Shown: positions 3,043-21,307 of the stretch, piece after piece
Layout: each line of letters opens with the position of its first letter
Position numbering within the stretch: position 1 is the first letter of the stretch
Assembly (NCBI RefSeq): GCF_000477435.1
Contig: NC_022576.1
Location: forward strand, 1,302,001-1,366,000
Direction of reading: 5' to 3'
Length of the DNA stretch: 64,000 nucleotides
Source of the DNA: Candidatus Symbiobacter mobilis CR
GTDB taxonomy: Bacteria > Pseudomonadota > Gammaproteobacteria > Burkholderiales > Burkholderiaceae_C
Program-made: the position numbers and the translations under genes
The notes under the pieces: generated by a model
Seen by the model: the letters and a program-made list of their open reading frames with translations, nothing else
Databases searched by the model: none
Told to the model about the DNA's origin: nothing

Positions 3043-3157
3043 CTGCCATGACTTTGCGCAGACGCCCAGAATCAGGAAAGTCATAGCAGTTTCCCTCCCC
3101 ACCCAGCCCCTCTCCCGCTGGACGAAGAGCGCTTCGAGAAGCCGCTACGCAACTTTC
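3043..3157 (+). repeat. Dispersed intergenic repeat, copy B (full length)
   Basis: The order is CCATGACTTTGCGCAGACGC, then AATCAGGAAAGTCATAGCAG, then a pyrimidine-rich CCCTCTCCCGCTGG-like core, then a segment like CTTCGAGAAGCCGCTACGCA. Copies C (24783-24900) and D (54430-54530) share the left half, and copy A (697-764) shares the right half. Confidence 0.7.
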
Positions 3158-3570
3158 ACATTAACCAGCAAGAATGCGCTCTGAGAGGGCACAACGCTAG
3201 GAATATGCACTGAAGGCGTAGCGAAATCATGGCGCCAGCACCAAACTTTGGTGCAGTACCCAAATTTTGCAGACAAAAATCAAGAAAATCAATAAGTTGC
3301 AATCGTGTAAAAGTTCCATTTCCGATTGCTACGCGCCGAAGTCTTATCATGCGTCGTAGGGTACGATGCGTAGCAGGAGTACAGTGCATCCATGAATTGA
3401 TCGACCGCGCACTACGATGTAAGTGGACAAATCATCCCCGTTGATGCCGCACTGGCAAAGGCTGGCATCCTCTTTCCCCCAGTCTATAAGGAACACCTTA
3501 CCTCCCTAGCCTCGATTCCATTCTCCATTCCAATCTTTTTGAGTAAGACAGCGTGCAATATCTACAGGAT

Positions 3571-3701: not shown

Positions 3702-5621
3702 ATGGCCCTGTTGAAGAAACCTGCATCCAAGTCCACCACCGCAACGCCTACGGAGGGGAAATCGTCCGCCATGGCTGCGAGAGAAGCCGAAGAACAGCGC
3801 AAACGCGCTCGAACCCTCGCCAAACAACAACAAGCGGCGGAACGGATTGCAGCAGCAACCGGCCAATTGTCTTCCGGCATCAATGAAGCAGCATCTGCCG
3901 CAGAAGAACTAAAACGCGCATCGGACCAAATTGCTACCGGGGCAGCAGAAGCATCCGGTGCAGCCCAGGAATCTCTGGCAGCATTCAAACAGGTGGTGGA
4001 TTCGATCGTCCGTCAACAGCAAAATGGGGACATAGGCCAAGCGAAGGGAGAAGCCGTTCAATCCCTGATTATCAAAACCAGCGCTGATGTCACCGGCATG
4101 GTCAGCAACGTTGGAGTTGCCGCACAACGCCAAAACGCATCTGTGGCCATGGTTGCAGAACTGGAAAAGCAGGCAGCCAACATCGGTGATATCGTCAAAG
4201 CTGTCGCACGCATTGCAGACCAAACCAATTTGTTAGCTCTAAATGCAGCCATTGAGGCTGCACGTGCAGGCAAACACGGTAAAGGCTTTGCAGTCGTAGC
4301 CGATGAAGTCAGAACGCTGGCAGAGACTTCGGAAAAGAGCGCCAAACAAATTCAAGACCTGGTCGGGCAAATTCAGCAAGAAGTCAAAATCATTGCAGAA
4401 GGCATTAGTGCTTCCGCCAAGTCTGTCGAAGGAGAAGTGGAAAACGGAAAAAACATCACCACACAATTGGAACAAATGCGCATCGATGTCACGGAAATTG
4501 TCAAAGGGGTGCGCGAGATTGCGGTAGGCGCGCAACAATCAAAAATTGCCGCGCAGCAAGCCCTAAAAGGTTCGGAAGACATTGCTGCTGCGGCAGAAGA
4601 ACAATCCGCCGCTTCCGAGCAATCTTCCAAAACCGTTGCGGAACAAGCGCAGGCTCTGGCCGAGTGCGAACAAGCCGCACAAAGTTTGTCCGAATTGGCA
4701 GAGGATTTGAAAACCTCCACCGATGTGGCCAAGAGTGCCGAAGAAGTCGCTTCTGCAGCGGAACAACTATCTTCCGCAGTGGCAGAAATCAACAGGTCCG
4801 GCGCGCAGATCATGGAAGCCATCGATCAAATTCGCAAAGGCGCCGAAGTGCAATCCGCCGGCACTGCGGAAGCTTCAGCAGCAATCACGCAAATCGAAAA
4901 GGGCCTGGAACTTGCCCTAAAACGCGCCTCAGTCAATTCCGAGAAAGTGGAATCCATCAAAAAACTTCTTACTGTCAACAAAGCCGCAGTCAATGCACTC
5001 ATCGCTGGAATCTTCGCCTCTGCAGAATCTTCCAAAGAGAGTATCAAACAAATTAAAGATCTTGCGTTGGTTTCCCGGCGCATCGACAAAATTGTCGATG
5101 CGATTACCACGGTATCAATTCAAACCAATATGCTTGCAGTGAATGGATCGATTGAAGCAGCGCGGGCTGGAGAATTCGGCAAGGGATTTGTGGTTGTCGC
5201 TACAGATATTCGAAATCTTGCTCATGATTCAGCAGAAAACGCCGACCGAATCAAGGATATGGTGAAAGCCGTGCAAGATCAAATTAGTGTAGTAGGCCGA
5301 GACTTGGAAGAAATTGTCGTGACGGCACAGGGGGAAGTGGAAAAAGCCAAACTCACTACAACGAATCTTATCACCATCGATACCGACATTAATGACGTCG
5401 AAAGCAGTACGCAAGAAATTTTGTCTGCAGCTAATGAAATTGCCGCAGCCACTGCGCAAGTCAAAAAGGGGGTAGAACAAATTGCCGCCGCAGCGCAAGA
5501 AGCCGACAAGGCCGCTACGGAGTCCGCGTCCGCTGCCAAACAGCAGGCGCAAGGTGCAGAAGAATTGGCTGCTGCTATTGAAGAAATCGCATCCCTGGCC
5601 GATGAGCTGCAAAGCAATTAA
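3702..5621 (+). CDS. Soluble methyl-accepting chemotaxis receptor with two signalling tips
   Basis: A 639-residue receptor with no transmembrane segment and no recognisable ligand domain; almost all of it is Ala/Glu/Gln-rich helix. It carries two chemoreceptor hairpin tips: [18 protein letters not shown] (about residues 172-190) and [18 protein letters not shown] (about 473-490). Each is followed by the GKGFxVVAxxxRxLA stretch, so the cytoplasmic signalling module appears duplicated in tandem. AGGAGA sits just before the ATG. It would have to form cytoplasmic arrays with the CheW and CheA encoded downstream. The adjacent gene encodes a triple CheW, which may match the doubled tip. The signal sensed is unknown; an internal metabolic signal or the stressosome encoded downstream are possibilities. 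Confidence 0.88.
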
Positions 5622-5636
5622 TCCAGGGGCAGAACC

Positions 5637-7229
5637 ATGACTATGGAAACTAGGGAATTGCCAGACGACCCGTCGCAAGTCGCGTCGGTCGACGCTGGTG
5701 ATGACGAAGACAACATGAATAATCAAATGGCCGATATACGGCAATTTGTGACATTCATTGCTGGTGATGAGGTGTTCGCGGTCGATATGGCGCCGGTACA
5801 GGAAATCATTCGGGTTCCCGACGTGGTGCGTGTACCCATGTCTCCTCACACGCTGGACGGCCTATCGAATCTGCGCGGCAAGGTCTTGCCAATCATCAGT
5901 TTGCGTCGCATCTTCGGTTTTGATGAGCGCACACACGACGACGCCACCCGTGCTTTGGTCATCGACATTGGCCAGCCATTGGGCTTTGTGGTAGACAAAG
6001 TGGCGAGCGTCGTTGGCGTAGAGTCCAGCAAAATCGAAGGCGTTGGAACCATTCACGGCACAGTCAACACGGAACTGCTTTCAGGGATCATCAAAGACGT
6101 GGGCGGGCACGCGATGATCATGATCTTGGATTTCGCAAAGCTGATTGCACAAGAATTTTCCGAAATTGCAGCGATAAGCAAGACCAGTGTCATGACAGGT
6201 GGATTGTCTGCCAACACTGATAACCAAGGAAGTAGCGACGATACCTTGAGTGACGAGCTGCAATTGGTGAGCTTTGAAGTGGCTGGCCAAGAATACGCAA
6301 TCACCATCGATGATGTGCAAGAAATCGTCCAGGTACCCGAGAACATAGTGCATATTCCGCGTTCGGAGTCTCACGTCCTCGGTGTGATGACGCTGCGTAA
6401 CCGCTTATTGCCCCTGGTCAATCTGCGGCGTATGTTTGCGCTGCCTGCGCAAGATGCCGACGAACACAGCCGCATCGTGGTGGTGTCCTTGGGAACCTCT
6501 TCCGTGGGCATTGTCATGGACTGTGTCAATGAAGTGCTGCGCGTAGCAAAAAGCGATGTCGATGCTATGCCTGGACTCTTGGCGCGAGACGGCGATTTGA
6601 AAGATATTTCTGGCATTTGTCGCCTCAATAACGGTAAACGCCTTGTATCGATCATTTCCGCAAGCAATCTGTTCCGCCATTCCGCCATCAAGGAGGCACT
6701 GCATACTGTGGATAGCTTAGACGAGGACAAAACCAATCAGAGTATTGATGATGACGAAAAGTCGAATGACGACGATGAACAAGTCGTGGTATTCCGTCTC
6801 GACAAGGAAGAGTTTGGCGTTCCCATAGAGAGCGTGCAAGAAATTGTCCGCGTACCGGAAGTGCTCACGCATATACCCAAGGCCCCTTCTTTCGTCGAAG
6901 GAGTCATCAATCTGCGCGGTGCTGTGCTGCCTGTCATCGACCTGCGAAGGCGTTTGGGATTGCCGAATGTAGAGCGTTGTGACCGACAACGCGTCATGGT
7001 GTTTCTGATCGAAGGCTTGCGCACCGGTTTCATTGTCGATTCGGTTGCTGAAGTTCTGAAAATTCACAAGTCAGCCATTGAAGCAGCGCCACGTCTTTCA
7101 AGTACACAAAGCAAGCTGCTGGCACGGATGGCAAATTTGGAAAAACAAAACCGCATGGTGCAATTGATTGCCCCAGCGCATTTGATCGAAAGCCGAGAGC
7201 TTGCAGATCTTGCAGAAATAGCAACGTGA
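5637..7229 (+). CDS. Triple CheW coupling protein
   Basis: A 530-residue protein made of three CheW domains at about residues 33-180, 208-350 and 380-520. Each begins with the V(S/T)F-x-V/I-x-G-E/Q beta strand and contains a VQEIxxVPE-type segment plus an NLR-(G/N)-xxLPxxxLR segment. Acidic linkers (for example DDDEKSNDDDEQ) separate them. CheW normally links receptors to CheA; a triple version could bridge several units in a cytoplasmic array. The gene starts 15 bp after the receptor. The ATG at 5643 is an alternative start. It is clearly intact. Confidence 0.92.
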   Translation: MTMETRELPDDPSQVASVDAGDDEDNMNNQMADIRQFVTFIAGDEVFAVDMAPVQEIIRVPDVVRVPMSPHTLDGLSNLRGKVLPIISLRRIFGFDERTHDDATRALVIDIGQPLGFVVDKVASVVGVESSKIEGVGTIHGTVNTELLSGIIKDVGGHAMIMILDFAKLIAQEFSEIAAISKTSVMTGGLSANTDNQGSSDDTLSDELQLVSFEVAGQEYAITIDDVQEIVQVPENIVHIPRSESHVLGVMTLRNRLLPLVNLRRMFALPAQDADEHSRIVVVSLGTSSVGIVMDCVNEVLRVAKSDVDAMPGLLARDGDLKDISGICRLNNGKRLVSIISASNLFRHSAIKEALHTVDSLDEDKTNQSIDDDEKSNDDDEQVVVFRLDKEEFGVPIESVQEIVRVPEVLTHIPKAPSFVEGVINLRGAVLPVIDLRRRLGLPNVERCDRQRVMVFLIEGLRTGFIVDSVAEVLKIHKSAIEAAPRLSSTQSKLLARMANLEKQNRMVQLIAPAHLIESRELADLAEIAT

Positions 7230-7256
7230 CGCAATGCCGGCTTCGTGCTGCGCGAG

Positions 7257-7309
7257 CGGGCCATGGCATGTGCATTACTACAGAGTATTGCAGCAAGCGC
7301 CATGGCCCG
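7257..7309. repeat. 11-bp perfect inverted repeat between cheW and cheB
   Basis: CGGGCCATGGC (7257-7267) pairs with GCCATGGCCCG (7299-7309) across a loop of about 31 bp. It starts 28 bp after the triple-CheW stop and could be a terminator-like or regulatory hairpin. The remaining 257 bp before cheB hold no gene; a TATAAT at about 7490-7495 lies 72 bp before cheB without a good -35, so cheB may have its own promoter. Confidence 0.45.
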
Positions 7310-7566
7310 TGCGTAAGCATGTTAGGAACGGATCCAGGCTGCAAGACTGCACCAGTGCATACCTTCGTCCCTCCAAAATGCCCTGCAGGGCTGTAGCGCG
7401 AAGTCGGATTCCGGTTTGGGCATTCCATCAAGCGTTGTACAACAGTCCATCTATTGCGGTATAGCAGATAGGCTTTGCTCTCAACTGTTTATAATTTATA
7501 TATTTGTGCAATGGCATTTTTGTAAATAAAACGCAATAGCCACGTACATCTATATATATCTAAATT

Positions 7567-8640
7567 ATGACAAAACTCCTCATCGTCGATGACTCTGCGC
7601 TAATGCGACGTCAGTTGGTCAGCTTGTTTGAAGAAGCAGGGGGCTTTCAAATTCATCAAGCAAGAAATGGACGTGAAGCAGTGGAAGAAAACCGCAGCTT
7701 CATGCCTGACGTCGTCACGCTGGACATCAATATGCCGGAAATGGACGGCATTACGGCACTGTCACTGATCATGGCAGAACGTCCAGTACCAGTAGTCATG
7801 CTTTCTTCCTTGACAGAAAAAGGAGCGCTGGCAACCTTTGAGGCATTGAATCTCGGTGCGGTTGATTACATCGCCAAACCTGGTGGAACCATTTCCTTGT
7901 CCCTTGGTGGAATCAAGGAAGAACTGGTCAACAAAGTACGGGCAGCAGCGCTCGCCAAGATCAAGGAGAAAAAAGTTTCCAGCGCCAGGGGGCTGGCGCA
8001 GCGTCTGCGCGATGAGCGGGAAAAGCCCGTTCCACGTCCGATGGCCGTTAGGCGCGGGGTAGCGGGTGAGGGACTGGTGATCATTGGCGTTTCCACTGGT
8101 GGGCCACGCACGTTGGAAGACATCTTGCCTCTATTTCCTGCCAACTTTCCGTGGCCAGTGCTAGTAGCCCAACACATGCCAAGCTCATTCACACGCCCGT
8201 TTGCGGAACGCCTCAACGCCATGTGCGAACTGACGGTGCAAGAAGCCGACCACCCGATGCCGATAGAAGCCGGAATCATCTACATTGGCAAAGGCGGTGC
8301 AGATATGCTGGTGGTGCAACGCGGCGGAAAGCTCACCGTAGTTCCCAAACCTGAAAACAAAGAATATCTATGGCATCCCTCTGTGGAATTGCTGGGGCGT
8401 TCTGTGTTGGAACATTGCGATCCCTCACGGGTTGTAGGGGTAATGCTGACAGGCATGGGATACGACGGTGCGGATGCTTTTGCTGAAATCAAAAAACGCG
8501 GCGGTCGAACCATTGCCGAATCCAGAGAATCAGCAGTCGTTTTTGGTATGCCAGCCGAACTGATAGAGCGGGGTGGCGCCAGCGTAGTGCTGGACAGCGA
8601 CAAAATTGCAGCCCAAATCAATGTCTGGGCAGGAAGGTAG
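7567..8640 (+). CDS. cheB: Chemotaxis protein-glutamate methylesterase/deamidase
   Basis: Removes receptor methyl groups after phosphorylation by CheA, providing adaptation. The N-terminal receiver (1-120) has D8/D9 and phospho-acceptor D53 (TLDINMPEMDG). A linker leads to the methylesterase domain from about residue 165, with the nucleophile in GVSTGGPRT (Ser about 176), the QHMP histidine and the GMGYDGAD aspartate. At 357 residues it is full length. HEAT-repeat and CheR genes follow on the same strand. Confidence 0.95.
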   Translation: MTKLLIVDDSALMRRQLVSLFEEAGGFQIHQARNGREAVEENRSFMPDVVTLDINMPEMDGITALSLIMAERPVPVVMLSSLTEKGALATFEALNLGAVDYIAKPGGTISLSLGGIKEELVNKVRAAALAKIKEKKVSSARGLAQRLRDEREKPVPRPMAVRRGVAGEGLVIIGVSTGGPRTLEDILPLFPANFPWPVLVAQHMPSSFTRPFAERLNAMCELTVQEADHPMPIEAGIIYIGKGGADMLVVQRGGKLTVVPKPENKEYLWHPSVELLGRSVLEHCDPSRVVGVMLTGMGYDGADAFAEIKKRGGRTIAESRESAVVFGMPAELIERGGASVVLDSDKIAAQINVWAGR

Positions 8641-8648
8641 CAAATTCC

Positions 8649-9272
8649 ATGGCTTTTGTAAAAAACCAATCGACGCAGCCTGTATTGGACGAAGAACGGC
8701 AACAACCACGTGATTGCAAACACCTGGTAGCAGAACTGGAAAATCCCAATCCTGGTGCCCGGCGCTGGGCGGCGCGAGATCTGATGGATTGCCCAGATGC
8801 TTCAGCAGCATTGATACGTCACTTGGAGCATGAGAAAGATATTTCTGTTCGAGAAGTGATTCTTACGACCCTGACTACCTTGGGGGACGACGTTGCAGTC
8901 GCGGGATTGGTGGAATGTTTGCGTAGCGACAGTGCTTTGGTGCGCAATGAGGCTATCGAAGCCATGAAGCAATTGCCAGACGAGGTTGCGTTGATCATGC
9001 GTGGCTTGCTGAACGATTCTGATCCCGATGTACGTATTTTTGCGGTAAATATTCTCGAATCTTTACGTCATCCTGATGTCGAAATGTGGCTGATCACAGT
9101 AATCGAAAATGATCAGCAATTGAATGTATGCGCTACTGCGGTGGACCTGCTAGGCGAAGTAGGTACAGCAGCATCGCGTGAGCCACTCCAGCGGTTGCAA
9201 AAGCGTTTTTCCGATGTTCCCTATATTCAATTCGCTACAAAGCTTGCGCTTCAACGAATCAATGGCGAATAA
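8649..9272 (+). CDS. HEAT-repeat protein of the chemosensory locus
   Basis: A 207-residue soluble protein of four or five HEAT/PBS-lyase-like helical repeats, for example NPGARRWAARDLMDCPD, SALVRNEAIEAMKQLPDE and DPDVRIFAVNILESLRHPDV. Such repeats are protein-binding scaffolds. It lies 8 bp after cheB and 27 bp before cheR, so it probably helps the adaptation enzymes or the array. HEAT proteins occur in some other alternative chemosensory operons; no enzymatic residues are visible. Confidence 0.8.
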   Translation: MAFVKNQSTQPVLDEERQQPRDCKHLVAELENPNPGARRWAARDLMDCPDASAALIRHLEHEKDISVREVILTTLTTLGDDVAVAGLVECLRSDSALVRNEAIEAMKQLPDEVALIMRGLLNDSDPDVRIFAVNILESLRHPDVEMWLITVIENDQQLNVCATAVDLLGEVGTAASREPLQRLQKRFSDVPYIQFATKLALQRINGE

Positions 9273-9299
9273 CTTCCATTCCCCGAAGCAAAACACCAG

Positions 9300-10142
9300 A
9301 TGAGCGAATCTATCATCAACGAACAAGATTTTGAAAAGTTTCGCGAATATTTTTATCGCAAAACTGGAATCCAGTTCGAGCAGACAAAACGTTATTTCGT
9401 CGATAAACGATTGGAAGAACGCATAGAAGCCACCAATAGTGGGAGCTTCCGAAATTATTTCACAATGCTGCGGTTTGAGGCATCCGGTGAAGAACTTCAG
9501 CATCTGACCAACCTGATGACAGTCAATGAAACCTATTTCTTTCGCGAGGAATACCAGTTTCAATGTTTAGTCAAATCGATTCTTCCAGAATTGACAAAGA
9601 GTAAAAGAGATAGGAAGCCGATACGTGTCTGGGTCATTCCATCTTCTTCAGGCGAGGAATCCTATTCGATTGCGATATATCTTCTTGAATATTGGAACGA
9701 GATCGATATATGGGATATCGAGATCATCTCATCCGATATTGATACCAAGATTCTTCGCATGGCACGGGAAGGCGTGTATTCGCAGCGTTCTGTACAACAT
9801 TTGCCAACAAAAATTCTGAATAAGTATTTCACAGCAAAATCAAGCGAATATCAAATTTGTGAAAGTTTGCGCCAAGCTGTGGAATTCACCCGAGTCAATT
9901 TATCTGATCGCGCCGATACCAGAGCATACCGGGATTTTGACGTCATCTTTTGCAGAAATCTGTTAATATATTTTGATGATGTTTCACGCAAAGCAGCAGC
10001 AGAGACATTTTATGATGCCATAAAACCAGGTGGTTTTGTTTGTTTGGGACATTCCGAATCCATGAGTCGTGTTTCTTCTCTTTACAAAGTTCGGAAATTT
10101 CCCGAAGCTATCGTATATCAAAAACCTTTGGAGGCACGATGA
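9300..10142 (+). CDS. cheR: Chemotaxis protein methyltransferase
   Basis: Transfers methyl groups from S-adenosylmethionine to receptor glutamates. The 280-residue protein has the N-terminal helical CheR domain (FEKFREYFYRKTGIQF; TVNETYFFREE) and the SAM-binding domain (VWVIPSSSGEESYSIAI; DVIFCRNLLIYFD). The SAM motif reads PSSSGEE where many CheRs have A-S-T/C-G-E-E. Local GC is very low: the 60 bases from 9661 count to about 37%. Its stop overlaps the next ATG (ATGA). Confidence 0.93.
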   Translation: MSESIINEQDFEKFREYFYRKTGIQFEQTKRYFVDKRLEERIEATNSGSFRNYFTMLRFEASGEELQHLTNLMTVNETYFFREEYQFQCLVKSILPELTKSKRDRKPIRVWVIPSSSGEESYSIAIYLLEYWNEIDIWDIEIISSDIDTKILRMAREGVYSQRSVQHLPTKILNKYFTAKSSEYQICESLRQAVEFTRVNLSDRADTRAYRDFDVIFCRNLLIYFDDVSRKAAAETFYDAIKPGGFVCLGHSESMSRVSSLYKVRKFPEAIVYQKPLEAR

Positions 10143-10507
10143 AACGCATCTTGATCATCGACGATGCGGCAACGGTACGCATGTATCACCGTAACATTCT
10201 AGAGGCAGCAGGCTACATTGTCGAGGAAGCAATGAATGGCATTGAAGCTTTGGAGAAAGCACTACAGAATCCATTTCAATTGTACATAGTCGACATCAAT
10301 ATGCCGAAGTTGGATGGTTACGGATTTTTGCGTGAATTACGTTCACAAGATATCGATCAGGCGCCAGCGATTATGATTTCAACGGAAGCGGAAGCCCGTG
10401 ATCGTACAGTTGCTTTTGCCTCGGGCGCCAATGCGTTTTTGGTCAAACCTGTCAAACCAGATCAATTACTGGTCAACGTCAAGCTGCTGATTGAAGGGGT
10501 GGCATGA
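10139..10507 (+). CDS. CheY-like single-domain response regulator (first)
   Basis: A 122-residue receiver with acidic pocket D8/D9, phospho-acceptor D52 (YIVDINMPKLDGYG), and the switch threonine replaced by serine in MISTEAEARD. The lysine in LVKPVKPDQ completes the active site. The start is fixed by the ATGA overlap with cheR, and it overlaps cheA by ATGA as well, so all three are translationally coupled. Whether it acts on the flagellar motor or as a phosphate sink cannot be told. Confidence 0.9.
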   Translation: MKRILIIDDAATVRMYHRNILEAAGYIVEEAMNGIEALEKALQNPFQLYIVDINMPKLDGYGFLRELRSQDIDQAPAIMISTEAEARDRTVAFASGANAFLVKPVKPDQLLVNVKLLIEGVA

Positions 10508-13236: not shown

Positions 13237-13478
13237 TGGCCATCGAGTACAAAAAAAACCAGGCACTGTTCCAAGACTTTGTCAGCGTCGAAGATGCTGA
13301 AACCTTGCTGGAATGGCTACTCAAAAAGTCCACAGCGCGTGTGGATATGTCAGCATGCACCCATCTTCATCCGGCGAATCTGCAAGTGTTGATGGTCGCA
13401 AAACCTGTCATCAGCGCGTGGCCCACAGATCAAGTATTGGCAACGTGGATCAAGTCCGTACTTCCAGCAAAGTCTTGA
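13236..13478 (+). CDS. 80-residue STAS-like protein after CheA
   Basis: A small protein whose stretch RVDMSACTHLHPANLQVLMV resembles the core strand-helix of STAS domains, although the domain is shorter than usual. Its ATG overlaps the cheA stop (TGATG) with AAGGAG just upstream, so it is translationally coupled to CheA. An upstream TTG at 13233 is less likely as start. A role linking CheA to STAS-type stressosome partners is only an inference from location. Confidence 0.65.
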   Translation: MAIEYKKNQALFQDFVSVEDAETLLEWLLKKSTARVDMSACTHLHPANLQVLMVAKPVISAWPTDQVLATWIKSVLPAKS

Positions 13479-13530
13479 CAATATTTTTGATCGAACCTAT
13501 AGCATATAAATTTATTTTTGGAGAAGCAAC

Positions 13531-13905
13531 GTGGCGAAAACAATCATGATTGTCGATGACTCTGCAACCATGTCCATGAGCGTCAAGGTCAATCTGGAAA
13601 TTGCCGGTTTCAAGGTGGAAACGGCACCGGATGGCGTCAAAGCACTGGCCAAACTCAAAGCCGGCCTAAAACCCGACTTGATCATTACAGACATTAATAT
13701 GCCGAACATGGACGGATTAGAACTGATCAAAAATATCCGTAGTCTGCCTGGCTTTCGGTTTACACCGATTCTTACCCTCACCACGGAGAGCTTGTCGTCC
13801 AAGCGCGATGAAGGGAAAAAATTGGGCGCCACCGGTTGGCTGGTCAAGCCTGTAGGCGGCGCCGACTTATTGAAAGTCATCAAACAAGTACTCCCTGGAT
13901 CCTAA
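13531..13905 (+). CDS. CheY-like single-domain response regulator (second)
   Basis: A 124-residue receiver with D9/D10, phospho-acceptor D54 (IITDINMPNMDG), switch Thr in LTLTTES and Lys in LVKPVGG. It starts at GTG 13531 behind GGAG. It is closer to canonical CheY than the receiver at 10139, so it may be the one that acts on the flagellar motor. It sits between the STAS-like gene and a membrane receptor. Confidence 0.9.
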   Translation: MAKTIMIVDDSATMSMSVKVNLEIAGFKVETAPDGVKALAKLKAGLKPDLIITDINMPNMDGLELIKNIRSLPGFRFTPILTLTTESLSSKRDEGKKLGATGWLVKPVGGADLLKVIKQVLPGS

Positions 13906-13927
13906 ATGAATGAAAGATAGGTAATTC

Positions 13928-15157
13928 GTGGACTCTCAGAATCTTCCCTTTCCTCGTGTTGGGTTTAAATACAAGTTGATAGGAGCTGCGCTGGGGGCGG
14001 TTGGCATTACCTGCTTGATCAGCACATTTTGTTCTACCTGGCTACACGTCAACATACTCCAACCAGCAAATTTGACTTATGCGCATGAAATCACGATCAC
14101 TGTCGTGCTCTCCATGCTGACATTTATCCCATTGACGGCACTGATTGCATGGCCATTTGCCAGCAAGGAGCTGGCTGTGCTATGGCAATTCATGAATGGT
14201 GTCGCCAAAGACACCAAGCAGGTTATCGACACGCACATACGTGTTGATGAGGCTATCGATGAGCAACTCAAGGTGGTCGTTGCAGACACTGACTCCGCAG
14301 CCATGACATTGATTCATCACGTAAAAAAACTCAATCATACTGCAACCCAATTGGTCAAGTACCTAGGAAGCTCTAATCTTTCAGCTCAGAACATGGATGA
14401 TGAAATCGATGCCAGCGTTGCATCGATTCATAAAATTAGCGATTTCGTCAACCAACTTCCAAAAATGATTCGGGAAGATGTTATTGGCATCCAAAAAACA
14501 GCCATCAAAGAGATTGGTTCCCTGGGATCTTTTATCAAGATTATTAAAGAAATCAGTTTGCAAACCAATCTATTAGCGCTCAATGCTGCCATCGAAGCCG
14601 CACATGCTGGAGAATCAGGGCGTGGTTTTGCAGTAGTTGCCGGGGAGGTTCGCAAGCTGTCTATCCGTGCGGCCGAGGCCGCTTCCATGATAGAAAATGG
14701 TCTGAATGGAGCAAAGCGCTCCCTACAGGAAGGTTTGGGGGAAAGCCCTATAGAGCAACAAATTCTTGATGCTAGTACAGTTGTTTCGTCGATTCGTCGA
14801 TTGCAGGAAGTCTATGAAGATATTCGACAATATTATAAAACGCTATTTATGGTTGTGACGGACCACAACAACAATTTGTCCAAGGAAATTGCCGAGATGC
14901 TTGGGCAAATTCAATTTCAGGACATTATGCGTCAGCGCATCGAGCGTGCAACCGAAGCGATTAACAAACGCAATCAAGTACTTGTTGAATTGTCACAGAA
15001 CCTGGTGCATTCCCCTTCCGATCTGGGTGAGTTACCGTCGAAGATGCAGGAAGTTCTCGAAGAATATCTTGCACAGGAAAGATGTCATGCACCGGTTGAT
15101 GAGTCAGGGGCAGGCGATGGCGATGGCGATGGCTTACCCAAGATTCAATTATTTTAA
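13928..15157 (+). CDS. Membrane-anchored methyl-accepting chemotaxis receptor
   Basis: A 409-residue receptor with two hydrophobic segments near the N-terminus (about 16-38 and 54-75) separated by only about 15 residues, so it has almost no periplasmic sensing domain. The cytoplasmic part has a signalling tip [18 protein letters not shown] (about 210-228) followed by [15 protein letters not shown]. The C-terminal part ([18 protein letters not shown]) is longer than a minimal receptor. GTG start at 13928. It may tether the array to the membrane or sense membrane state. Confidence 0.85.
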
Positions 15158-15178
15158 AACCTGTTATCTGGAGGGATG

Positions 15179-16054
15179 ATGGCAACGAAACTATTAGAAC
15201 CTATAGATCGGATGTTGACAAAACACCGTTCTGCTGTTCATGATGTATGGATAAACGAGCTGCTAACGATATGGAGCCAACATTACCAAAATGACCTGGA
15301 GGAAAGTGATTTGCGTATGCATGCAAATCGTTTGCTCAGTGAGTTGACTACGCTGTTTGGTGAACACTCCGGGGATGGTTCTCCACGGGTTGGCTCAGGT
15401 AGCGCTGTGGCTACCACTGTTCGGGAAATGAGTGTGCATCGCACTAAGACTGGTTTCAAGCCTACCGACACTGCGAAATTTGTGTTGATCTTGAAACGTG
15501 TGATGATGAATCATTTGGTACAAGATTCAGGGCAGACACCGACGCAGCTTGCTGCTTGTCTGACGGCGCTCAATGATGTTCTCGATCATCTTTCGTTGTT
15601 AATACTAGATTCTTATGTCGATACCCGAGAAAAAATCATCACGCAACAAAGCGCCTCCCTCTTGGAGTTATCCACCCCCATTATTAGATTATGGGATCAG
15701 ATTTTGATGCTTCCACTGGTTGGCGTCATTGACACATTGCGTGCGAGACAATTTACAGAACGACTTCTTGAAGCTATCGCGCATTATGAAGCCACTGTAA
15801 CGATCATTGACATTACAGGTGTGCCAGTTGTCGATACCAGCGTCGCTCGCCACATCATGAAAACGGTCGATGCAGCGCAACTACTGGGTAGCCGCATCAT
15901 TATGACCGGTATTAGCCCGGCTAGTGCATTGACGCTGATCAAACTTGGTATCAGTTTCGAGGGAATGATTACCCGAGCAACATTGCGTGCTGGAGTTGCC
16001 GAAGCATTGCATTTGATCGGCAGGAGAATCGTCTCCCATACTGGAGCAAGATGA
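15179..16054 (+). CDS. rsbR: RsbR-type stressosome sensor-scaffold protein
   Basis: About 291 residues. An N-terminal helical domain (HRSAVHDVWINELLTIW...) resembles the RsbRD N-terminal domain, and a C-terminal STAS domain (about 160-285) has the RsbR signature: LELSTPIIRLWDQILMLPLV, IDTLRARQ, VVDTSVARH, LLGSRIIMTGISP. The VDT threonine aligns with the phosphorylated T171 of Bacillus RsbRA, from family knowledge. With RsbS it would form the stressosome core that sequesters RsbT. The N-terminus should set the signal; no heme or flavin motif is evident. GGAGG lies 4 bp before the ATG at 15179; an ATG at 15176 also exists. It overlaps rsbS. Confidence 0.9.
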   Translation: MATKLLEPIDRMLTKHRSAVHDVWINELLTIWSQHYQNDLEESDLRMHANRLLSELTTLFGEHSGDGSPRVGSGSAVATTVREMSVHRTKTGFKPTDTAKFVLILKRVMMNHLVQDSGQTPTQLAACLTALNDVLDHLSLLILDSYVDTREKIITQQSASLLELSTPIIRLWDQILMLPLVGVIDTLRARQFTERLLEAIAHYEATVTIIDITGVPVVDTSVARHIMKTVDAAQLLGSRIIMTGISPASALTLIKLGISFEGMITRATLRAGVAEALHLIGRRIVSHTGAR

Positions 16055-16464
16055 TGATCATCCCGATTCTTCGACTCGATAATGTGCTGCTGGCATCGAT
16101 TCAGATTGACCTATCCGATACGGAAGTTTTGCAGTTTCAAACCGATGTCGTGAACAAGATTTCAGAATCTGATACTTTAGGAATTGCTATTGATATTACT
16201 GCTTTAGAAGTTGTAGATTCATTTATGGCGCGCGTCATCAATGAAACTGCGAGTATGTCACGCCTTCTGGGTGCCGAGGTTGTGATTTGTGGAATCAGGC
16301 CCTATGTAGCGATGACTCTCGTCGAAATGGGTCGCGACCTGATTGCTGCGGATTGTGCATTCAACCTAAGTCAGGGCTTGGAAATGCTGAAAAATAAAAT
16401 TCAAGCCCGAGGTGACAAATATCTGGCTTCAGGAGACGATTATGCACAGCCAGATTCCGTCTGA
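16051..16464 (+). CDS. rsbS: RsbS-type stressosome STAS scaffold protein
   Basis: A 137-residue single STAS protein closely matching RsbS: IPILRLDNVLLASIQIDLSD, IDITALEVVDSFMAR and LLGAEVVICGIRPYVAMTLV. Ser57 in VVDSF corresponds to the RsbS serine phosphorylated by RsbT (S59 in Bacillus). It is the binding platform for RsbT in the stressosome. The C-terminal tail (ARGDKYLASGDDYAQPDSV) is somewhat longer than usual. Its start overlaps the rsbR stop and its end overlaps rsbT. Confidence 0.95.
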   Translation: MMIIPILRLDNVLLASIQIDLSDTEVLQFQTDVVNKISESDTLGIAIDITALEVVDSFMARVINETASMSRLLGAEVVICGIRPYVAMTLVEMGRDLIAADCAFNLSQGLEMLKNKIQARGDKYLASGDDYAQPDSV

Positions 16465-16870
16465 GTCCGTGCGAATTTTGTCTCCCCCTGATATCGTCCA
16501 GGCACGCACTACAGCCCGACGTATGGCGGCGGGGATTGGTTTTGGTATTGCAGACCAAATTCGCCTTGCCACAGCGGTATCCGAGTTGACACGCAATGTT
16601 CTCCAGTACGCAGGAATAGGTGTTTGTAGCTTTGAAGATGCGTCGGATGGTACTCAGATCCGCTTGCGCGCCACCGTGGAAGATAATGGGCCGGGTATTC
16701 TGGACATTGGCATGGCAATGAAAGATGGCTTCAGCACCAGCCATGGTCTGGGCGCTGGATTGCCTGGAACCAGGCGGCTCATGGACGTCTTTTACATTGA
16801 GTCAGTGCCTGGACTGACGCGAATCATCATCACGTTGGAGCGCGAACGACTGCTGGAATCGTCAAAGTGA
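16442..16870 (+). CDS. rsbT: RsbT serine/threonine kinase (stressosome switch)
   Basis: A 142-residue GHKL kinase that phosphorylates RsbR and RsbS and, once released, binds an RsbU-like partner. It shows the RsbT signature SPPDIVQARTTARRMAAGIG, the N-box SELTRNVLQYAG, DNGPGI and the G2 box GLGAGLPGTRRLMD. The ATG at 16442 has AGGAG upstream and overlaps the rsbS end by 23 bp. All nucleotide-binding motifs are intact. Confidence 0.94.
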   Translation: MHSQIPSESVRILSPPDIVQARTTARRMAAGIGFGIADQIRLATAVSELTRNVLQYAGIGVCSFEDASDGTQIRLRATVEDNGPGILDIGMAMKDGFSTSHGLGAGLPGTRRLMDVFYIESVPGLTRIIITLERERLLESSK

Positions 16871-17259
16871 GCGATATTCTTTTGCTCATTGAATCCGAAA
16901 GTGATATCGCCCAAGCTGCACGATGCAGCAGGATGTTGGCGGAATCGATCGGTTTCAATCAAGTTGAAAGCTGCTATGTGGCTACTGCTGCGTCGGAGTT
17001 GGCTGCCAATACCTTGTTCCATGGTGGTGGGGGAATGTTTGAGGCCCATGTTCTGATCCCGAAGCCAGGCATCGAGTTGATTAGCTCAGATAATGGCCCT
17101 GGTATTAAAGATTTGAATTTGGCAATGCGTGAAGGATATAGCACTACCGGCAGTCTTGGATGTGGTTTACCGGGTGCTTTGCGCTTGATGGACGAAATGT
17201 TTATTTTGACCCAACTCGGTGAAGGTACATCGGTTTGCGTACGAAAGTGGTGCAAATAA
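16867..17259 (+). CDS. Second RsbT-like GHKL ATPase
   Basis: A 130-residue HATPase of the anti-sigma/RsbT type: N-box ASELAANTLFHGGGG, SDNGPGI, and the G2 box GCGLPGALRLMDE followed by GEGTSV. GTG start at 16867 overlaps the rsbT stop. It is a diverged paralogue of the preceding gene, lacking the N-terminal SPPDIVxAR signature. It could act as a second kinase in the stressosome cascade; comparable extra RsbT-like genes occur in some proteobacterial stressosome modules. Function inferred from position. Confidence 0.82.
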   Translation: MSDILLLIESESDIAQAARCSRMLAESIGFNQVESCYVATAASELAANTLFHGGGGMFEAHVLIPKPGIELISSDNGPGIKDLNLAMREGYSTTGSLGCGLPGALRLMDEMFILTQLGEGTSVCVRKWCK

Positions 17260-17311
17260 AACCGCCAATTACAGCACGGAACAGGGGTTCTTTAGGGGAT
17301 TTTTCTTGGCG

Positions 17312-17932
17312 ATGATCGCTTACGCAACTCTACCCAAAGATGGTGAAACCGATTGTGGTGATCGTTGTGGTTGGTGGACCTCACAACCAGGATACATGCT
17401 TATGGCGGTTGCTGACGGGTTGGGGCATGGTCTAGAAGCTGCCCAGGCTGCTGACTTGGCGATGCGGTGTGTGGGGGCATTGTCGAACGCATCCATGGAA
17501 CATATTTTTTCTGAATGTGATGCCCACTTGCGATCCACACGAGGAGTAGCCATGGCTATTGCCGTGGTTCATCTGGAAAGTGGACTGGCAACGTTGGCTT
17601 CGGTGGGAAATATTCGCATGGTATTGTCTGCTGCATCCAAAGATTATCGATTTGGAGCGGCCCGTGGCATTGTTGGTGGGGGGTATGCACGTTTGTCTAC
17701 AGAGCATATCTCTCTCGTACCTGGTGATGTATTGGCCATTTTTTCAGATGGCCTGAGTGAATTTACCGACTTGCGAACAGCCCTTGCAGCATCGCCTGAC
17801 ATTTCGGACTTGCATACTGCGAATCTATTACGTCTATGGGCTAACCGTAAGGATGACGCCGCTTTGCTGCTGTATCGTCATGCATCGTTGTCCACAGAAA
17901 AACCAACACCGGTTTGCAACCCCACTCTTTAG
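17312..17932 (+). CDS. rsbX: RsbX-type PP2C phosphatase
   Basis: About 206 residues; a PP2C/SpoIIE-type serine phosphatase that resets the stressosome by dephosphorylating RsbR and RsbS. Metal-binding motifs: CGDRCGWW, VADGLGHG, GNIRMVL, FSDGLSEF and RKDDAALLLYR. The start is uncertain: ATG 17312, TTG 17306 (better spaced from AGGGG at 17294), or a longer in-frame start back to 17219. The last codons lie in a short repeat (ACACCGGTTTGCAACCCC) also found at 45239, so the C-terminus may have been replaced by repeat DNA. Confidence 0.88.
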   Translation: MIAYATLPKDGETDCGDRCGWWTSQPGYMLMAVADGLGHGLEAAQAADLAMRCVGALSNASMEHIFSECDAHLRSTRGVAMAIAVVHLESGLATLASVGNIRMVLSAASKDYRFGAARGIVGGGYARLSTEHISLVPGDVLAIFSDGLSEFTDLRTALAASPDISDLHTANLLRLWANRKDDAALLLYRHASLSTEKPTPVCNPTL

Positions 17933-17998
17933 TGGTAGTACGCTATGAAACCAGGAATGCAAAGCGATTTTCGAAAAGCCGCTTCACGACTTTTACAC
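17908..17998 (+). repeat. Two repeat fragments between rsbX and the histidine kinase
   Basis: AACACCGGTTTGCAACCCC (about 17905-17924) recurs at about 45239-45258, where a similar CTT-x-AGTGG/AGCGG tail follows. Directly downstream, TTCGAAAAGCCGCTTCACGA (about 17968-17990) matches the right end of the dispersed intergenic repeat (copies A and B). Confidence 0.55.
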
Positions 17999-18011
17999 TA
18001 ATAAAACTCCC

Positions 18012-19124
18012 ATGCCGCAACGCATAGGTCGCTCCAATCTCCAGCCCTCTGCGGCTCCCTGCAACCCGCAGAAGGATACGCAGCACGATACCCGGCCCTA
18101 TGCCAAGCAGTATGCCCACCTGCTTACACGTTTTGCTTTGTCCGATGGTGAAGAAGAAGGCGAGGTATTCTTGGCAGAGGCATTCGAGCTTGGCCGCGCC
18201 ATGATGGATCAACAATTGCCGCCCGATGCAGTCACGATGATCCATCATGAGGCTTTGCTCAACTTTGCAGATACGCATCCAGCGCTCGTATCACCAGTGG
18301 TCGCCCATCGCTTGACGCACCCTTTGATAGAAATGACCATGGCGTATGGCATGGCTTTTCGTGAGCAAATGGAAAAGCAATATCAAAATATACTCAATAC
18401 CCGCCTGGAAGAATCTCGCAAGTTGGAGGCTGTAGGGACACTGGCTGCAGGCATTGCGCATGACTTCAACAATTTGCTAGGAAGTATCATTGGTTTTGCC
18501 GAGATGGCGGGGGATTACTTGGGGGAAGACACGCCGGGAAAGAGAGATATTCAGCAAGTCCTCAAAGCGAGTTTTCGAGCACGTGATTTGGTGGCAAGGC
18601 TATTGGCATTTGCCAGACAATCTCCGCTCCATCCCACCCCCATGGACTTACTGACCGAAGTCAAGGAAACGTTGGACTTGTTGCGTGCCACTTTGCCACC
18701 TGGCGTGCAGACGTCTTTGGAGTCCGACATGGAGCAGGCTACCATCCTCGCCGATCCTTCGCAGATTCAACAAATCGTCATGAATTTGTGCATCAATGCT
18801 GCAGATGCGCTGAACGATAACGGATGCGTAGATATTCGAATCTTTGCCGTTCCAGAAAACGATGTATTGGATGCCATCCCCGTTCGCAAAGTGTGTTTGA
18901 TGGTGGCTGATCATGGAACGGGAATGTCGCATGCAACGCTGGAAAGTGTCTTCAATCCATTCTTTACGACCAAGGCCCCTGGCAAAGGCAGTGGACTGGG
19001 ATTATCGGTGGTCTATGGAATCGTGCAAAGCCTGGGAGGAGCAATCCAGGTAGAAAGTCGTACGCGGGGCGACAATCGGGGAACCGTCTTCAAGGTATAT
19101 TTACCGCGTATAAATAATCCTTAA
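18012..19124 (+). CDS. Histidine kinase with RsbU-like N-terminal domain
   Basis: A 370-residue soluble kinase. Residues about 30-100 (FLAEAFELGRAMMDQQLP; MIHHEALL) resemble the RsbU N-terminal domain, which binds RsbT in Bacillus. A HisKA helix with phospho-histidine H150 (GIAHDFNNLLGSIIGF) and a HATPase (NLCINAADAL, DHGTGM, GKGSGLGLSVVYGI) follow. There is no membrane segment. Directly after the stressosome genes, it is the expected output partner of RsbT, replacing the RsbU phosphatase. The next gene is a lone receiver, presumably its substrate. The family assignment of the N-terminus is by pattern and needs a profile search. Confidence 0.85.
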   Translation: MPQRIGRSNLQPSAAPCNPQKDTQHDTRPYAKQYAHLLTRFALSDGEEEGEVFLAEAFELGRAMMDQQLPPDAVTMIHHEALLNFADTHPALVSPVVAHRLTHPLIEMTMAYGMAFREQMEKQYQNILNTRLEESRKLEAVGTLAAGIAHDFNNLLGSIIGFAEMAGDYLGEDTPGKRDIQQVLKASFRARDLVARLLAFARQSPLHPTPMDLLTEVKETLDLLRATLPPGVQTSLESDMEQATILADPSQIQQIVMNLCINAADALNDNGCVDIRIFAVPENDVLDAIPVRKVCLMVADHGTGMSHATLESVFNPFFTTKAPGKGSGLGLSVVYGIVQSLGGAIQVESRTRGDNRGTVFKVYLPRINNP

Positions 19125-19143
19125 TCTTCGTGAGAGAAATGAT

Positions 19144-19524
19144 ATGGCGAATATTCTTGTGATTGACGATGATGAACAATTCCGCGCGATGCTGACACAA
19201 ATGCTAACGCAGGAAAGACATCGTGTGACTGCCGCAACGGATGGGAAGATGGGTTTGGAACTGCTTTCGCATTTTACCCCAGATTTGATCATTACAGATA
19301 TTCTCATGCCCAACAAGGATGGGATTGAATTGATACTGGAATTGGTTCACAAGGGCTGTACGATCCCTATGATTGCTATTTCCGGTGGCCGCCGTTCCAT
19401 TCATGCACAATTTAATCTTGATTCGGCTACCTTGATGGGTGTCAATGCAACCCTCACCAAACCTTTCACACGCGAAGACTTGCGAAATGCCATTCGTCAG
19501 GTTCTTGCTGGAAGTGGCTCTTGA
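19144..19524 (+). CDS. Single-domain response regulator
   Basis: A 126-residue receiver with D8-D10, phospho-acceptor D52 (IITDILMPNKDG), AISGG in place of the usual Thr segment, and Lys in LTKPFTRED. No output domain. It is 19 bp after the histidine kinase and probably receives phosphate from it. Having no DNA-binding or GGDEF domain, it must act through protein contact, for example on the chemosensory array or the motor. Confidence 0.9.
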   Translation: MANILVIDDDEQFRAMLTQMLTQERHRVTAATDGKMGLELLSHFTPDLIITDILMPNKDGIELILELVHKGCTIPMIAISGGRRSIHAQFNLDSATLMGVNATLTKPFTREDLRNAIRQVLAGSGS

Positions 19525-19570
19525 GAGCATTGTGCTTTTTTGGTAAACATCCCTTCTGTGGTGACCAGGT

Positions 19571-20350
19571 ATGACTGCGCTTCAAGTGATAGCAATTTCC
19601 AATCGCAAGGGTGGTACCGGGAAATCTACGGTATCGGTCAATCTTTCCGCAGAATTGGCGCGACTGGGTCGACGAGTACTCCTGATCGATCTCGATTCCC
19701 AAGGGCACTGTGCGGTGGGTTTGGGCGTCAAGGTGCATCGTGACGACACGGTAGTTCACAGCCTATTCACCGACCCCCATGCCAAGCTCTCCATGCTCGT
19801 TCGGCCCACTGCTTTTCCCAATCTTTCCCTGGCGCCGGCAGATCAGCGGTTTGAACACGGCAGTGGTGAGCGCGACGAGCTTCGGCTTGCGCGTGCGTTG
19901 GCGGAAGAGGACATTGCCCAGCGCTTCGACGTGGTGATTGTGGACACCCCGCCTTCTTTGGATTATTTGCTGCTGAATGCGCTGACCGCAGCAAACTGGC
20001 TCATGATCCCTTTTGTTCCGCATCACTTGGGATTCGAGGGGGTATTGCAGTTGATGCGGGTGCTTTTCAAGGTGATTTCTGGCCCCAATCCGCAATTGAA
20101 AATACTGGGGTTTCTCCCCACCATTGCTGCGGACCATATTCGTCAGCACCGTACCATTAGCGCCGAAGTCTCCCGGCAATTCGGCGCGAATCGCTTGCTT
20201 CCGGGTATTCGCAATGACATCCGTTTGGCCGAGGCGTTCGCTGCAGGGCAACCCATTTGCCAATATGCCCCCAAGTCCAGAGGGGCGGAAGATTTCGTCA
20301 AATTGGCGGCACATATCGTGCCCGCATTGGCCCCACAACGCATGGAATGA
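19571..20350 (+). CDS. ParA/MinD-family ATPase
   Basis: A 259-residue deviant-Walker ATPase: KGGTGKST (about 13-20), DLDSQGHC and VIVDTPPSLDYLLLNAL. No ParB and no parS site are next to it. Placed at the end of the chemosensory-stressosome locus, it may position or partition a cytoplasmic cluster, as the ParA-like PpfA does for soluble arrays in Rhodobacter sphaeroides. This is inference from context; it could also belong to the following genes. GC rises towards normal from here. Confidence 0.82.
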   Translation: MTALQVIAISNRKGGTGKSTVSVNLSAELARLGRRVLLIDLDSQGHCAVGLGVKVHRDDTVVHSLFTDPHAKLSMLVRPTAFPNLSLAPADQRFEHGSGERDELRLARALAEEDIAQRFDVVIVDTPPSLDYLLLNALTAANWLMIPFVPHHLGFEGVLQLMRVLFKVISGPNPQLKILGFLPTIAADHIRQHRTISAEVSRQFGANRLLPGIRNDIRLAEAFAAGQPICQYAPKSRGAEDFVKLAAHIVPALAPQRME

Positions 20351-20425: not shown

Positions 20426-21307
20426 ATGTTTGACCTCACCAGCCTCCCGCGTGAACGCATCGCCCACCACTGCGTCTGCTGTGGCAGCAGTGCTTTGCTC
20501 TCTGCCCCGGCCATCCTGATGCCTTTCGTGGCCCACCGTGTCTTCGGATGGGAGCCTGTGCTGATCGACGAAAGCTGGGGATTGCAGACGATTCGGCAAG
20601 GCAATGCCTATGCCGTGTGCAAGTCCTTGCACTGCACGGTGTGCGGGCTGTTGTTTCTCGATATCCGATTCAGCGACCAAGAAATGTCCCGGCTGTACCA
20701 CGACTACCGTGGCGAGGAATACACCAGTCTGCGCGAACGGTACGAGCCTGGCTACACCCAGCGTAACGACAACCTCAATGCGGGAATCACGTACCGGGAA
20801 GACATTGAGCAATTCCTTGCACCGTTCTTGCACGAACCCCTGCACGTGCTGGACTGGGGCGGCGATACAGGGCGGAACACGCCTTTTCAGCATCGCGCCG
20901 AAGTCTGGGACATTTACGACATCAGCGATAAGGCCGTGCTGCCCGGGGCGCGGCGTGTAGACCCCGCACAGCTTGGGGATCGCAAATACTCGCTCATCGT
21001 TTGTAGCAATGTGCTCGAACACATCCCCTACCCTGCCGATGTACTGGGGGATATTCGCCGCCACATGGACAGCCAGTCTGTGCTGTACATCGAAGTGCCG
21101 CTGGAAGACGTGGTGCGTTGCAATGCCGACAACCTGCATCGGCACAAAAAGCATTGGCACGAACACATCAATTTCTACACCGCACCGTCCCTGACCAAGC
21201 TGGTCGAAAACCTCGGGCTGCGGGTGCTGTCGTTGCGCCCCTTGCAAGCAGCCAATGCCGGGCGCACCGGGCATTGGTGGCAAATGGCTTGCGCCCTCGA
21301 TTCCTGA
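20426..21307 (+). CDS. Class I SAM-dependent methyltransferase with zinc-binding N-terminus
   Basis: A 293-residue protein with an N-terminal cysteine cluster ([19 protein letters not shown]) and a Rossmann methyltransferase fold: [11 protein letters not shown] as motif I and [13 protein letters not shown] as the acidic post-II region. [14 protein letters not shown] is shared with sugar C-methyltransferase-like families. The substrate is unknown. It is 75 bp after parA and upstream of coaX, so it may not be functionally linked to either. Confidence 0.75.

Follow-up and report, generated by a model that had tools for sequence, protein, structure and literature searches.

An F9-type chemosensory cluster and a stressosome module form a conserved genetic unit in Candidatus Symbiobacter mobilis

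Chemosensory and stressosome genes share one 18-gene block

Candidatus Symbiobacter mobilis (CP004885) is the motile bacterium at the centre of the light-loving consortium 'Chlorochromatium aggregatum' (PMC4053972). We analysed a stretch of 64,000 nucleotides of its one-contig genome (2,991,840 bases), covering positions 1,302,001 to 1,366,000 and hereafter called the window, which contains a block of 18 genes on the forward strand between positions 3702 and 20350. In this block, a chemosensory cluster is followed by the genes of a stressosome, a histidine kinase, a stand-alone receiver (RR) and a ParA ATPase. A first-pass annotation made from the same DNA had listed these 18 genes on one strand, and all of them are present with the expected domains. 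The block is bordered by a gene with lumazine-binding domains (2331-2966) on one side and by a methyltransferase gene (20426-21307) on the other. It is AT-richer than its surroundings, with a GC content of 45-54% in 16 of the 18 genes (41% for CheR and 56% for ParA) and of 59-65% in the immediate flanks.

The last chemosensory gene, encoding the second receptor MCP2, ends 18 base pairs (bp) ahead of RsbR. RsbR and RsbS overlap by 4 bp, as they do in most related loci, RsbS and RsbT by 23 bp, and RsbT and the second RsbT-like gene, RsbT2, by 4 bp. RsbT2 and RsbX are 52 bp apart if RsbX starts at ATG 17312, and overlap if it starts at GTG 17219. Spacings of 79, 19 and 46 bp then separate RsbX from the kinase, the kinase from RR and RR from ParA. 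The largest gap from the end of MCP2 through ParA is therefore the 79 bp ahead of the kinase, in agreement with the earlier claim that no gap above 80 bp exists in this half; one bigger gap, of 337 bp, lies in the chemosensory half between the end of CheW3 (7229) and the start of CheB (7567). The two halves had also been called fused, which holds for the adjacency of their genes but not for the proteins, none of which is a fusion. Three starts, those of CheY1 (10139), the STAS-like gene (13236) and RsbT (16442), were placed by reading and differ from those of the longest open reading frames. Scanning the block for promoters and terminators returned sites no more numerous than in shuffled sequence.

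The chemosensory half opens with a soluble DosM-like receptor of 639 amino acids (3702-5621), in which Pfam recognised two MCPsignal stretches, and continues with CheW3 (5637-7229), a protein of 530 amino acids with three concatenated CheW domains; the 119 other best matches listed for CheW3 are 73-82% identical to it. A receptor with two signalling domains and a triple CheW are the signature proteins of class F9 (PMC9321776), and judging by these two proteins, from which alone the class is named here, the chemosensory half belongs to F9. The cluster is full rather than partial, with its own CheB (7567-8640, receiver and methylesterase domains), CheR methyltransferase (9300-10142), CheY1 receiver (10139-10507, identified by Response_reg and its translation, with an inferred start that overlaps CheR by 4 bp) and CheA (10504-13236, with Hpt, dimerisation, HATPase and CheW domains). 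Between CheB and CheR, it encodes a HEAT-repeat protein (8649-9272) that is present in F9 loci both with and without a stressosome. The half closes with the CheY2 receiver (13531-13905) and with MCP2 (13928-15157), a short MCPsignal receptor that a tree assigns to type A (see below) and whose hydrophobic N-terminal segments, judged by eye, point to a membrane location.

Directly behind CheA lies a protein of 81 residues (13236-13478) that has no Pfam match. It had been called STAS-like, and a STAS fold is indeed what is predicted for it: its AlphaFold2 model has a predicted local distance difference test score of 93.2, and the best Foldseek match of the model is Bacillus subtilis RsbV (6m36; E 7.1e-4, template modelling score 0.61). 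In an alignment covering F9 loci with and without a stressosome, the window protein has a Pro at a position where its relatives have T, A, P or S. We rejected this protein as a part of the stressosome because F9 loci encode it both in the presence and in the absence of RsbRST.

The DosM-like proteins have a basic N-terminal stretch in common (3702-3850 in the window), which was recognised in 20 of 22 complete N-termini; that of L132 is different, and the L128 sequence that was compared ends inside the stretch (L and G numbers designate loci and genomes, respectively). In the receptor FrzCD, a basic tail binds the nucleoid (PMC5716589). The basic tail of DosM was discarded as a marker of ParA since it is seen with and without ParA. 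At its C-terminus, the second receptor carries the motif [ILF][EQ][LF]F, usually IELF (15137-15154 in the window), in 47 of 47 sequences, with or without a stressosome, and this conserved tail peptide is perhaps a docking site.

A set of stressosome genes is followed by a kinase, a receiver and ParA

RsbR (15176-16054) consists of an RsbRD_N and a STAS domain. In A1, an alignment of 30 RsbR proteins, T186 is invariant and T220 nearly invariant (P0001 numbering), and we take these residues to be the phosphosites; the motif IDTxRA[RK] was found in 40 of 43 loci. RsbS (16051-16464) is a single STAS domain with a conserved D-S/T site (41 of 42). Two RsbT-like HATPase kinases follow, RsbT (16442-16870, from an inferred ATG start) and RsbT2 (16867-17259, matched below the Pfam cut-off), whose N-box/G1 pattern was present in 35 of 40 and in 37 of 37 sequences, respectively. 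RsbX (17312-17932, or from the alternative GTG 17219) is a phosphatase of the PP2C/SpoIIE type, and its DGxGHG motif was found in 36 of 36. The parts of a stressosome were thus all identified, namely RsbR with a C-terminal STAS domain and conserved Thr, RsbS, an RsbT of the switch-kinase type and RsbX. They would be expected to build an RsbR/RsbS particle that sequesters RsbT.

RsbRD_N occurs once in the Ca. S. mobilis genome, in the RsbR of the window, where it is the sole N-terminal domain at E <= 0.001. No protoglobin N-terminal domain was found on this RsbR, and its RsbRD_N sets the module apart from the Vibrio-type globin stressosomes. Neither is the module a SigB-type operon with an rsbU phosphatase, rsbV, rsbW and sigB downstream: kinase, receiver and ParA take that place, and rsbV, rsbW and sigB are absent from the 18-gene block, the rest of the genome not having been searched for them. 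The genome encodes five SpoIIE-type phosphatase domains, four of them outside the block, so other partner-switching parts may exist in it.

In a sequence search of the PDB, RsbT2 came out weakly near SpoIIAB and RsbT was placed nowhere. In most of the distant stressosomes, the single RsbT resembles RsbT2 more than RsbT, and the labels RsbT and RsbT2 may therefore be swapped. In Methylobacter tundripaludum SV96 (L050), an additional RsbT2-like gene and an additional piece of kinase were observed in the same cluster.

The histidine kinase (18012-19124) combines RsbU_N, HisKA and HATPase domains. RsbU_N was detected in the window kinase at E 4.7e-6 (27.1 bits, with a cut-off of 25.5) and in 21 of 21 orthologues scanned (E up to 0.1) out of 35 distinct ones collected; the phospho-His and the N-box Asn are invariant across the 21. 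RR (19144-19524) is a lone receiver without an output domain, and the ParA ATPase (19571-20350) ends the block.

The union recurs in many proteobacterial genomes

Scanning a genome collection with alignment A1 yielded 78 RsbR loci, whose che and rsb genes were called with hidden Markov models built from part of these loci. CheA was encoded in the same stretch in 29 of the 78, a proportion biased towards the union since A1 was built from close relatives of the window RsbR. Two further loci were cut by a contig end after CheY2-MCP2, 12 were too short to judge, and 35 had no CheA despite at least 4 kilobases (kb) upstream of RsbR; L038 is counted among these 35, although CheY2 and MCP2 adjoin its RsbR. 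The RsbR clade to which the window belongs has 42 loci (L009-L050), of which 29 have CheA, 8 lack it, 2 are too short and 3 have CheY2-MCP2 alone (L017 and L049, which are cut, and L038, where the separation is true). Among the 36 more distant loci (L051-L086), CheA was absent in 26 and 10 were too short. The first-pass annotation had suggested such a search for cheA near rsbRST and had named a neighbourhood shared by no other genome as a refuting outcome. Instead, many genomes show this gene order, which also rules out a chance adjacency of the two halves.

By record title, the RsbR loci with cheA beside them belong to gammaproteobacterial, betaproteobacterial and deltaproteobacterial hosts. 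The hosts so titled include Methylobacter, Methylicorpusculum, Methylotuvimicrobium, Delftia, Zoogloea, Undibacterium, Oxalobacteraceae, Contendobacter, Allochromatium, Marichromatium, Thiorhodococcus, Imhoffiella, Halochromatium, Lamprobacter and Ectothiorhodospira, as well as two metagenome-assembled genomes (MAGs), one of Desulfuromonadales and one of Ca. Anaeroferrophillacea (Deltaproteobacteria). Furthermore, L128 (G479), from another class of the same phylum, has an F9 cluster followed by RsbR, RsbS, RsbT, RsbT2, RsbX and a more distant kinase. The placements of MAGs may be affected by misbinning. Locus L020, filed as a cyanobacterial (Synechococcaceae) MAG, falls with Contendobacter in both trees (che and Rsb), and its contig is probably misbinned.

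Gene order is constant across the union loci except in L011, L012 and L013, where the kinase and RR stand ahead of RsbRSTX (together with ParA in L011). The pairwise distances of the che and rsb halves are strongly correlated (Mantel r 0.87, a value reached in 0 of 5000 permutations) over the 25 loci with a complete set of the seven che and five rsb genes compared. In the Rsb tree, 42 entries (the window and L009-L050 minus L024) form a single clade with a support of 0.998; L128 stands at the base of the union clade (support 0.872), and the sister group consists of proteobacterial stressosomes with no che cluster in the fetched stretch. In the che tree, F9 loci with and without a stressosome are intermixed, indicating that losses or repeated gains of the stressosome occurred. 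We conclude that the che-stressosome union is a real, conserved genetic unit, and the association looks old.

In both trees, the Chromatiales loci form a clade of their own that excludes the window (support 1.0 each). For the Rsb half, the distance to the window is 0.63-0.65 for methanotrophs and the Desulfuromonadales MAG and starts at 0.79 for Chromatiales; for the che half, it is 0.47 for Allochromatium warmingii and 0.46-0.48 for methanotrophs. Purple sulfur bacteria, published as a possible source, are thus not favoured by the trees as the nearest donor, the che-half distances being level. Closer relatives are known from metagenomes, with an RsbR 75% identical to that of the window.

F9 clusters and stressosomes in other arrangements

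We searched three genome samples for RsbR and CheW3, namely 369 genomes of the class, 91 of the methanotroph family and 57 Chromatiaceae, with a CheW3 cut-off of E 1e-40 in the class sample and 1e-60 in the family samples, and with union-type RsbR defined by at least 300 bits. Such an RsbR was present in eight genomes, all of which also had F9 CheW3, at a distance of at most 10 kb in six; without the search-centre genomes, the co-occurrence was 5 of 5. Where only weaker RsbR matches were found, F9 CheW3 was present in 4 of 32 genomes. CheW3 is uncommon overall, occurring in 11 of 369 genomes of the class, 8 of 398 of the phylum, 6 of 91 of the methanotroph family and 10 of 57 Chromatiaceae. 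Genomes G249 and G373 of this set overlap with the 78 RsbR loci.

The eight Rsb loci without nearby che genes represent six genomes, three of which carry F9 elsewhere: unlinked F9 CheW3 proteins of 68-76% identity were found in Thiocystis violacea, Chromatium okenii and a betaproteobacterial MAG (L034). The separate F9 cluster carries ParA in Thiocystis and in the L034 MAG, and also RR in the latter (L143 and L144). ParA lies inside or beside F9 in 8 of 11 F9 loci without RsbRST (L104, L105, L107, L120-L123 and L131). Since ParA goes with most F9-only loci, it is a companion of F9, and the window stressosome would then lie inside an extended F9 locus. Orthologues of RR occur in the F9-only loci L121, L123 and L144, whose receivers group with those of the union loci in a tree, and in L102. 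In L102, RsbR, RsbS, RsbT and RsbT2 were not detected, and of RsbX roughly the last 100 residues are left; the kinase and RR are kept. The stressosome looks to have been lost there.

The second receptors divide into two deeply separated types, A and B (47 sequences, support of the split 0.999). Type A was found in all 34 stretches that hold both a receptor and an RsbR of at least 300 bits, and in six F9 loci without such an RsbR, four of which keep RR. Type B was found in six F9-only loci and in L128. In L038 and L099, CheY2-MCP2-RsbR are separate from the F9 core, and RsbS-RsbT are also there in L038. This arrangement suggests that MCP2 may be linked more closely to the stressosome than to CheA.

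Apart from these genes, the window holds two copies of a dispersed 25-base genome repeat, one upstream of DosM (3140-3164) and one between RsbX and the kinase (motif at 17977-18001, repeat copy annotated at 17976-18001 on the forward strand). A genome motif search counted 27 copies at no more than two mismatches and none for the reversed pattern used as a control.

Discussion

Class F9 arrays and stressosomes are each known, and we did not find their union described in the literature searched (open-access papers, mostly titles and abstract starts). By description, the chemosensory half resembles F9 cluster I of Vibrio cholerae (DosM/VC1403, triple CheW/VC1402, CheA/VC1397), with which it shares a receptor with two signalling domains, a triple CheW, CheA, CheB, CheR, two CheYs and an extra membrane receptor, whereas in the window it is followed by a stressosome, a kinase with RsbU_N, a receiver and ParA. 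With the RSTX modules of proteobacteria, of the Vibrio type and others (PMC9237108), the other half shares the order RsbR, RsbS, RsbT, RsbX, a downstream kinase and receiver, and the RsbU_N seen in some downstream proteins; in that survey, the account of V. vulnificus gives RsbU_N as not detected downstream. The window differs by RsbRD_N at the N-terminus of RsbR instead of the globin described there, by the second RsbT-like kinase and by a full F9 cluster upstream. Compared with rsbRSTUVW-sigB-rsbX of B. subtilis, the RsbR/RsbS/RsbT/RsbX logic and the RsbU_N target domain are common to both, but the target is a histidine kinase in the window and a phosphatase in B. subtilis.

The layout itself, thought in the first-pass annotation to be without precedent, is very probably not new. 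The 2013 genome paper lists a 16-kb island of 17 genes, 'Chemotaxis and regulation' (CB_GI-5 in Table 1; CB_GI-4, Cenrod_1189-1205, in the text), whose genes are described as similar, in their order and in their sequences, to clusters found in purple sulfur bacteria (for example Allochromatium vinosum) and for which sulfide chemotaxis was suggested (PMC4053972). From DosM to RR, the window holds 17 genes in 15.8 kb. Size, gene number, content label and likeness to purple sulfur bacteria, matched without locus-tag coordinates, make it very probable that the published island is the window stretch up to RR; neither 'stressosome' nor 'Rsb' occurs in the main text of that paper. Furthermore, a role of Gram-negative stressosomes in steering aerotaxis was proposed earlier from a nearby CheY-like gene (PMC4976288).

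The adjacency of genes for an internal chemosensory array and a stressosome in several bacterial groups suggests that the two work jointly. In our preferred reading, to which we give about an even chance, the products of the locus are two large sensory assemblies with a common output branch, and the stressosome adds a slower, second input to the F9 pathway. The F9 half would provide, for an array of the two-layered cytoplasmic kind, a DosM-like scaffold, baseplates of CheW3 and CheA, adaptation by CheB and CheR, the HEAT and STAS proteins as accessories, CheY1, CheY2 and MCP2; the stressosome half would provide an RsbR/RsbS core, the RsbT-type kinases and RsbX as a reset phosphatase. A signal sensed by RsbR would lead an RsbT kinase to phosphorylate RsbR and RsbS, whereupon the kinase would be set free. 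By analogy with known families, the freed RsbT would bind the histidine kinase at its RsbU_N domain and turn the kinase on. Homology of RsbU_N and RsbT makes this step well founded, as in B. subtilis the N-terminal domain of RsbU and its linker are where RsbT binds (PMC12143880), and RsbU_N kinases were previously noted in proteobacterial stressosome operons (PMC9237108). The active kinase would then phosphorylate the lone receiver encoded next to it. Since RR is kept with some stressosome-free F9 clusters, it would probably act in the F9 output beside CheY1 and CheY2, perhaps on the neighbour-encoded ParA. The cellular output might be motility, array positioning or another process; in V. cholerae, control of flagellar motility is reported as shown for the F6 system only (PMC7534058). 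More tentatively, F9 and the stressosome might form one two-storey machine, in which MCP2, the F9 STAS protein and the kinase-RR pair couple the chemoreceptor lattice to partner switching and in which fast (CheA) and slow (RsbT) inputs reach the same receivers; we regard this as possible rather than probable.

Several points weigh against a shared output. Coupling and output are deduced from gene content and arrangement. The joint divergence of the two halves is equally expected for a linked block inherited without crosstalk. The Fisher test for co-occurrence of RsbR and CheW3 (P 6e-6, or 3e-4 minus the three search-centre genomes) ignores kinship, and the genomes of L019, L021 and L025 in the same Rsb clade (MAGs, two of them Geobacteraceae) gave no CheW3 match at E 1e-40, the L019 contig holding 4.1 kb upstream only. 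L128 has a stressosome and yet a type B receptor. The grouping of RR from F9-only loci with union receivers has a moderate support of 0.863, and RR is short. RsbRST are present in 3 (G249, G373 and G479) of 16 F9 loci inspected, which were drawn from the class, phylum and methanotroph-family samples with the window (search centre G000) excluded and with five loci cut by contig ends left out (G193, G259, G355, G497 and G531). The remaining loci comprise one with a lone RsbR on another contig (G116), one with a relic of kinase and RR (G199) and 11 with none; among the 11, G761 and G558 have a divergent cluster in which CheY2/MCP2 or CheA went unrecognised, and in G444 and G449 the contig stops at ParA and no union-type RsbR was found in the genome. 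The stressosome is therefore not a universal part of F9, which can manage without it, and is best seen as an add-on. Of the union of a CheA system with a stressosome claimed in the first-pass annotation, the conserved genetic unit stands, but the chemosensory part bears the F9 signature rather than being a generic chemotaxis operon, and the association is not constant, as most F9 clusters have no stressosome. A single coupled machine with motility as its output, also suggested there, is something that we infer at most.

The block could also hold two independent modules without molecular contact, kept together by shared transcription, horizontal transfer and usefulness in the same conditions (low oxygen, starvation, sulfide gradients). 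It is an AT-richer island, and both of its halves are near the Desulfuromonadales MAG and the methanotrophs, contrary to the species tree. F9 spreads by horizontal transfer (PMC9321776), its arrays appear in starvation or low oxygen (PMC7534058), and a Vibrio stressosome senses O2 (PMC4976288). Nevertheless, we find independence rather doubtful, because membership is constant while order varies (L011-L013), both modules persist unlinked in 3 of 6 genomes, RR remains at some F9 clusters after RsbRST are gone, and CheY2-MCP2-RsbR stay together where the CheA core is elsewhere (L038, L099). The presence of ParA raises a different explanation, in which the stressosome governs where or whether the F9 array forms: the kinase would act through RR on ParA, which would position and segregate the array, leaving CheA signalling untouched. 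In Rhodobacter sphaeroides, the ParA-type PpfA goes with a cytoplasmic chemoreceptor cluster, of another chemosensory class and with no stressosome. RR and ParA are adjacent in the window, in union loci such as L010, L014, L041 and L045, and in the F9-only loci L121, L123 and L144, and ParA accompanies most F9 loci without RsbRST as well as L143 and L144. Conversely, ParA was undetected in the fetched stretch of five union loci with RR (L028, L029, L032, L033 and L035) and stands without RR in F9 loci L104, L105, L107, L120, L122, L131 and L143, which makes this explanation unlikely.

Finally, the kinase-receiver pair might relay the signal of the stressosome to unrelated targets (gene expression, cyclic di-GMP) with the F9 neighbours uninvolved, as proposed for other proteobacterial RSTX modules, among which HisKA/REC or cyclic di-GMP downstream modules are known (PMC9237108). 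In V. vulnificus, fleQ transcription is down in both stressosome-locus mutants, and the downstream mutant swims less (PMC10014275). For the present locus this appears quite improbable, given that RR is a stand-alone receiver that lacks an output domain and groups with the receivers of F9-only loci.

The association of F9 with the stressosome lends itself to testing by gene removal. It is found in organisms available as cultured strains, among them Methylotuvimicrobium buryatense, whose strain 5G (L030) has the complete locus up to RR. F9 and the stressosome may each supply part of the answer to the other's open question, and Ca. S. mobilis offers a concrete candidate for joining stress sensing to consortium behaviour.

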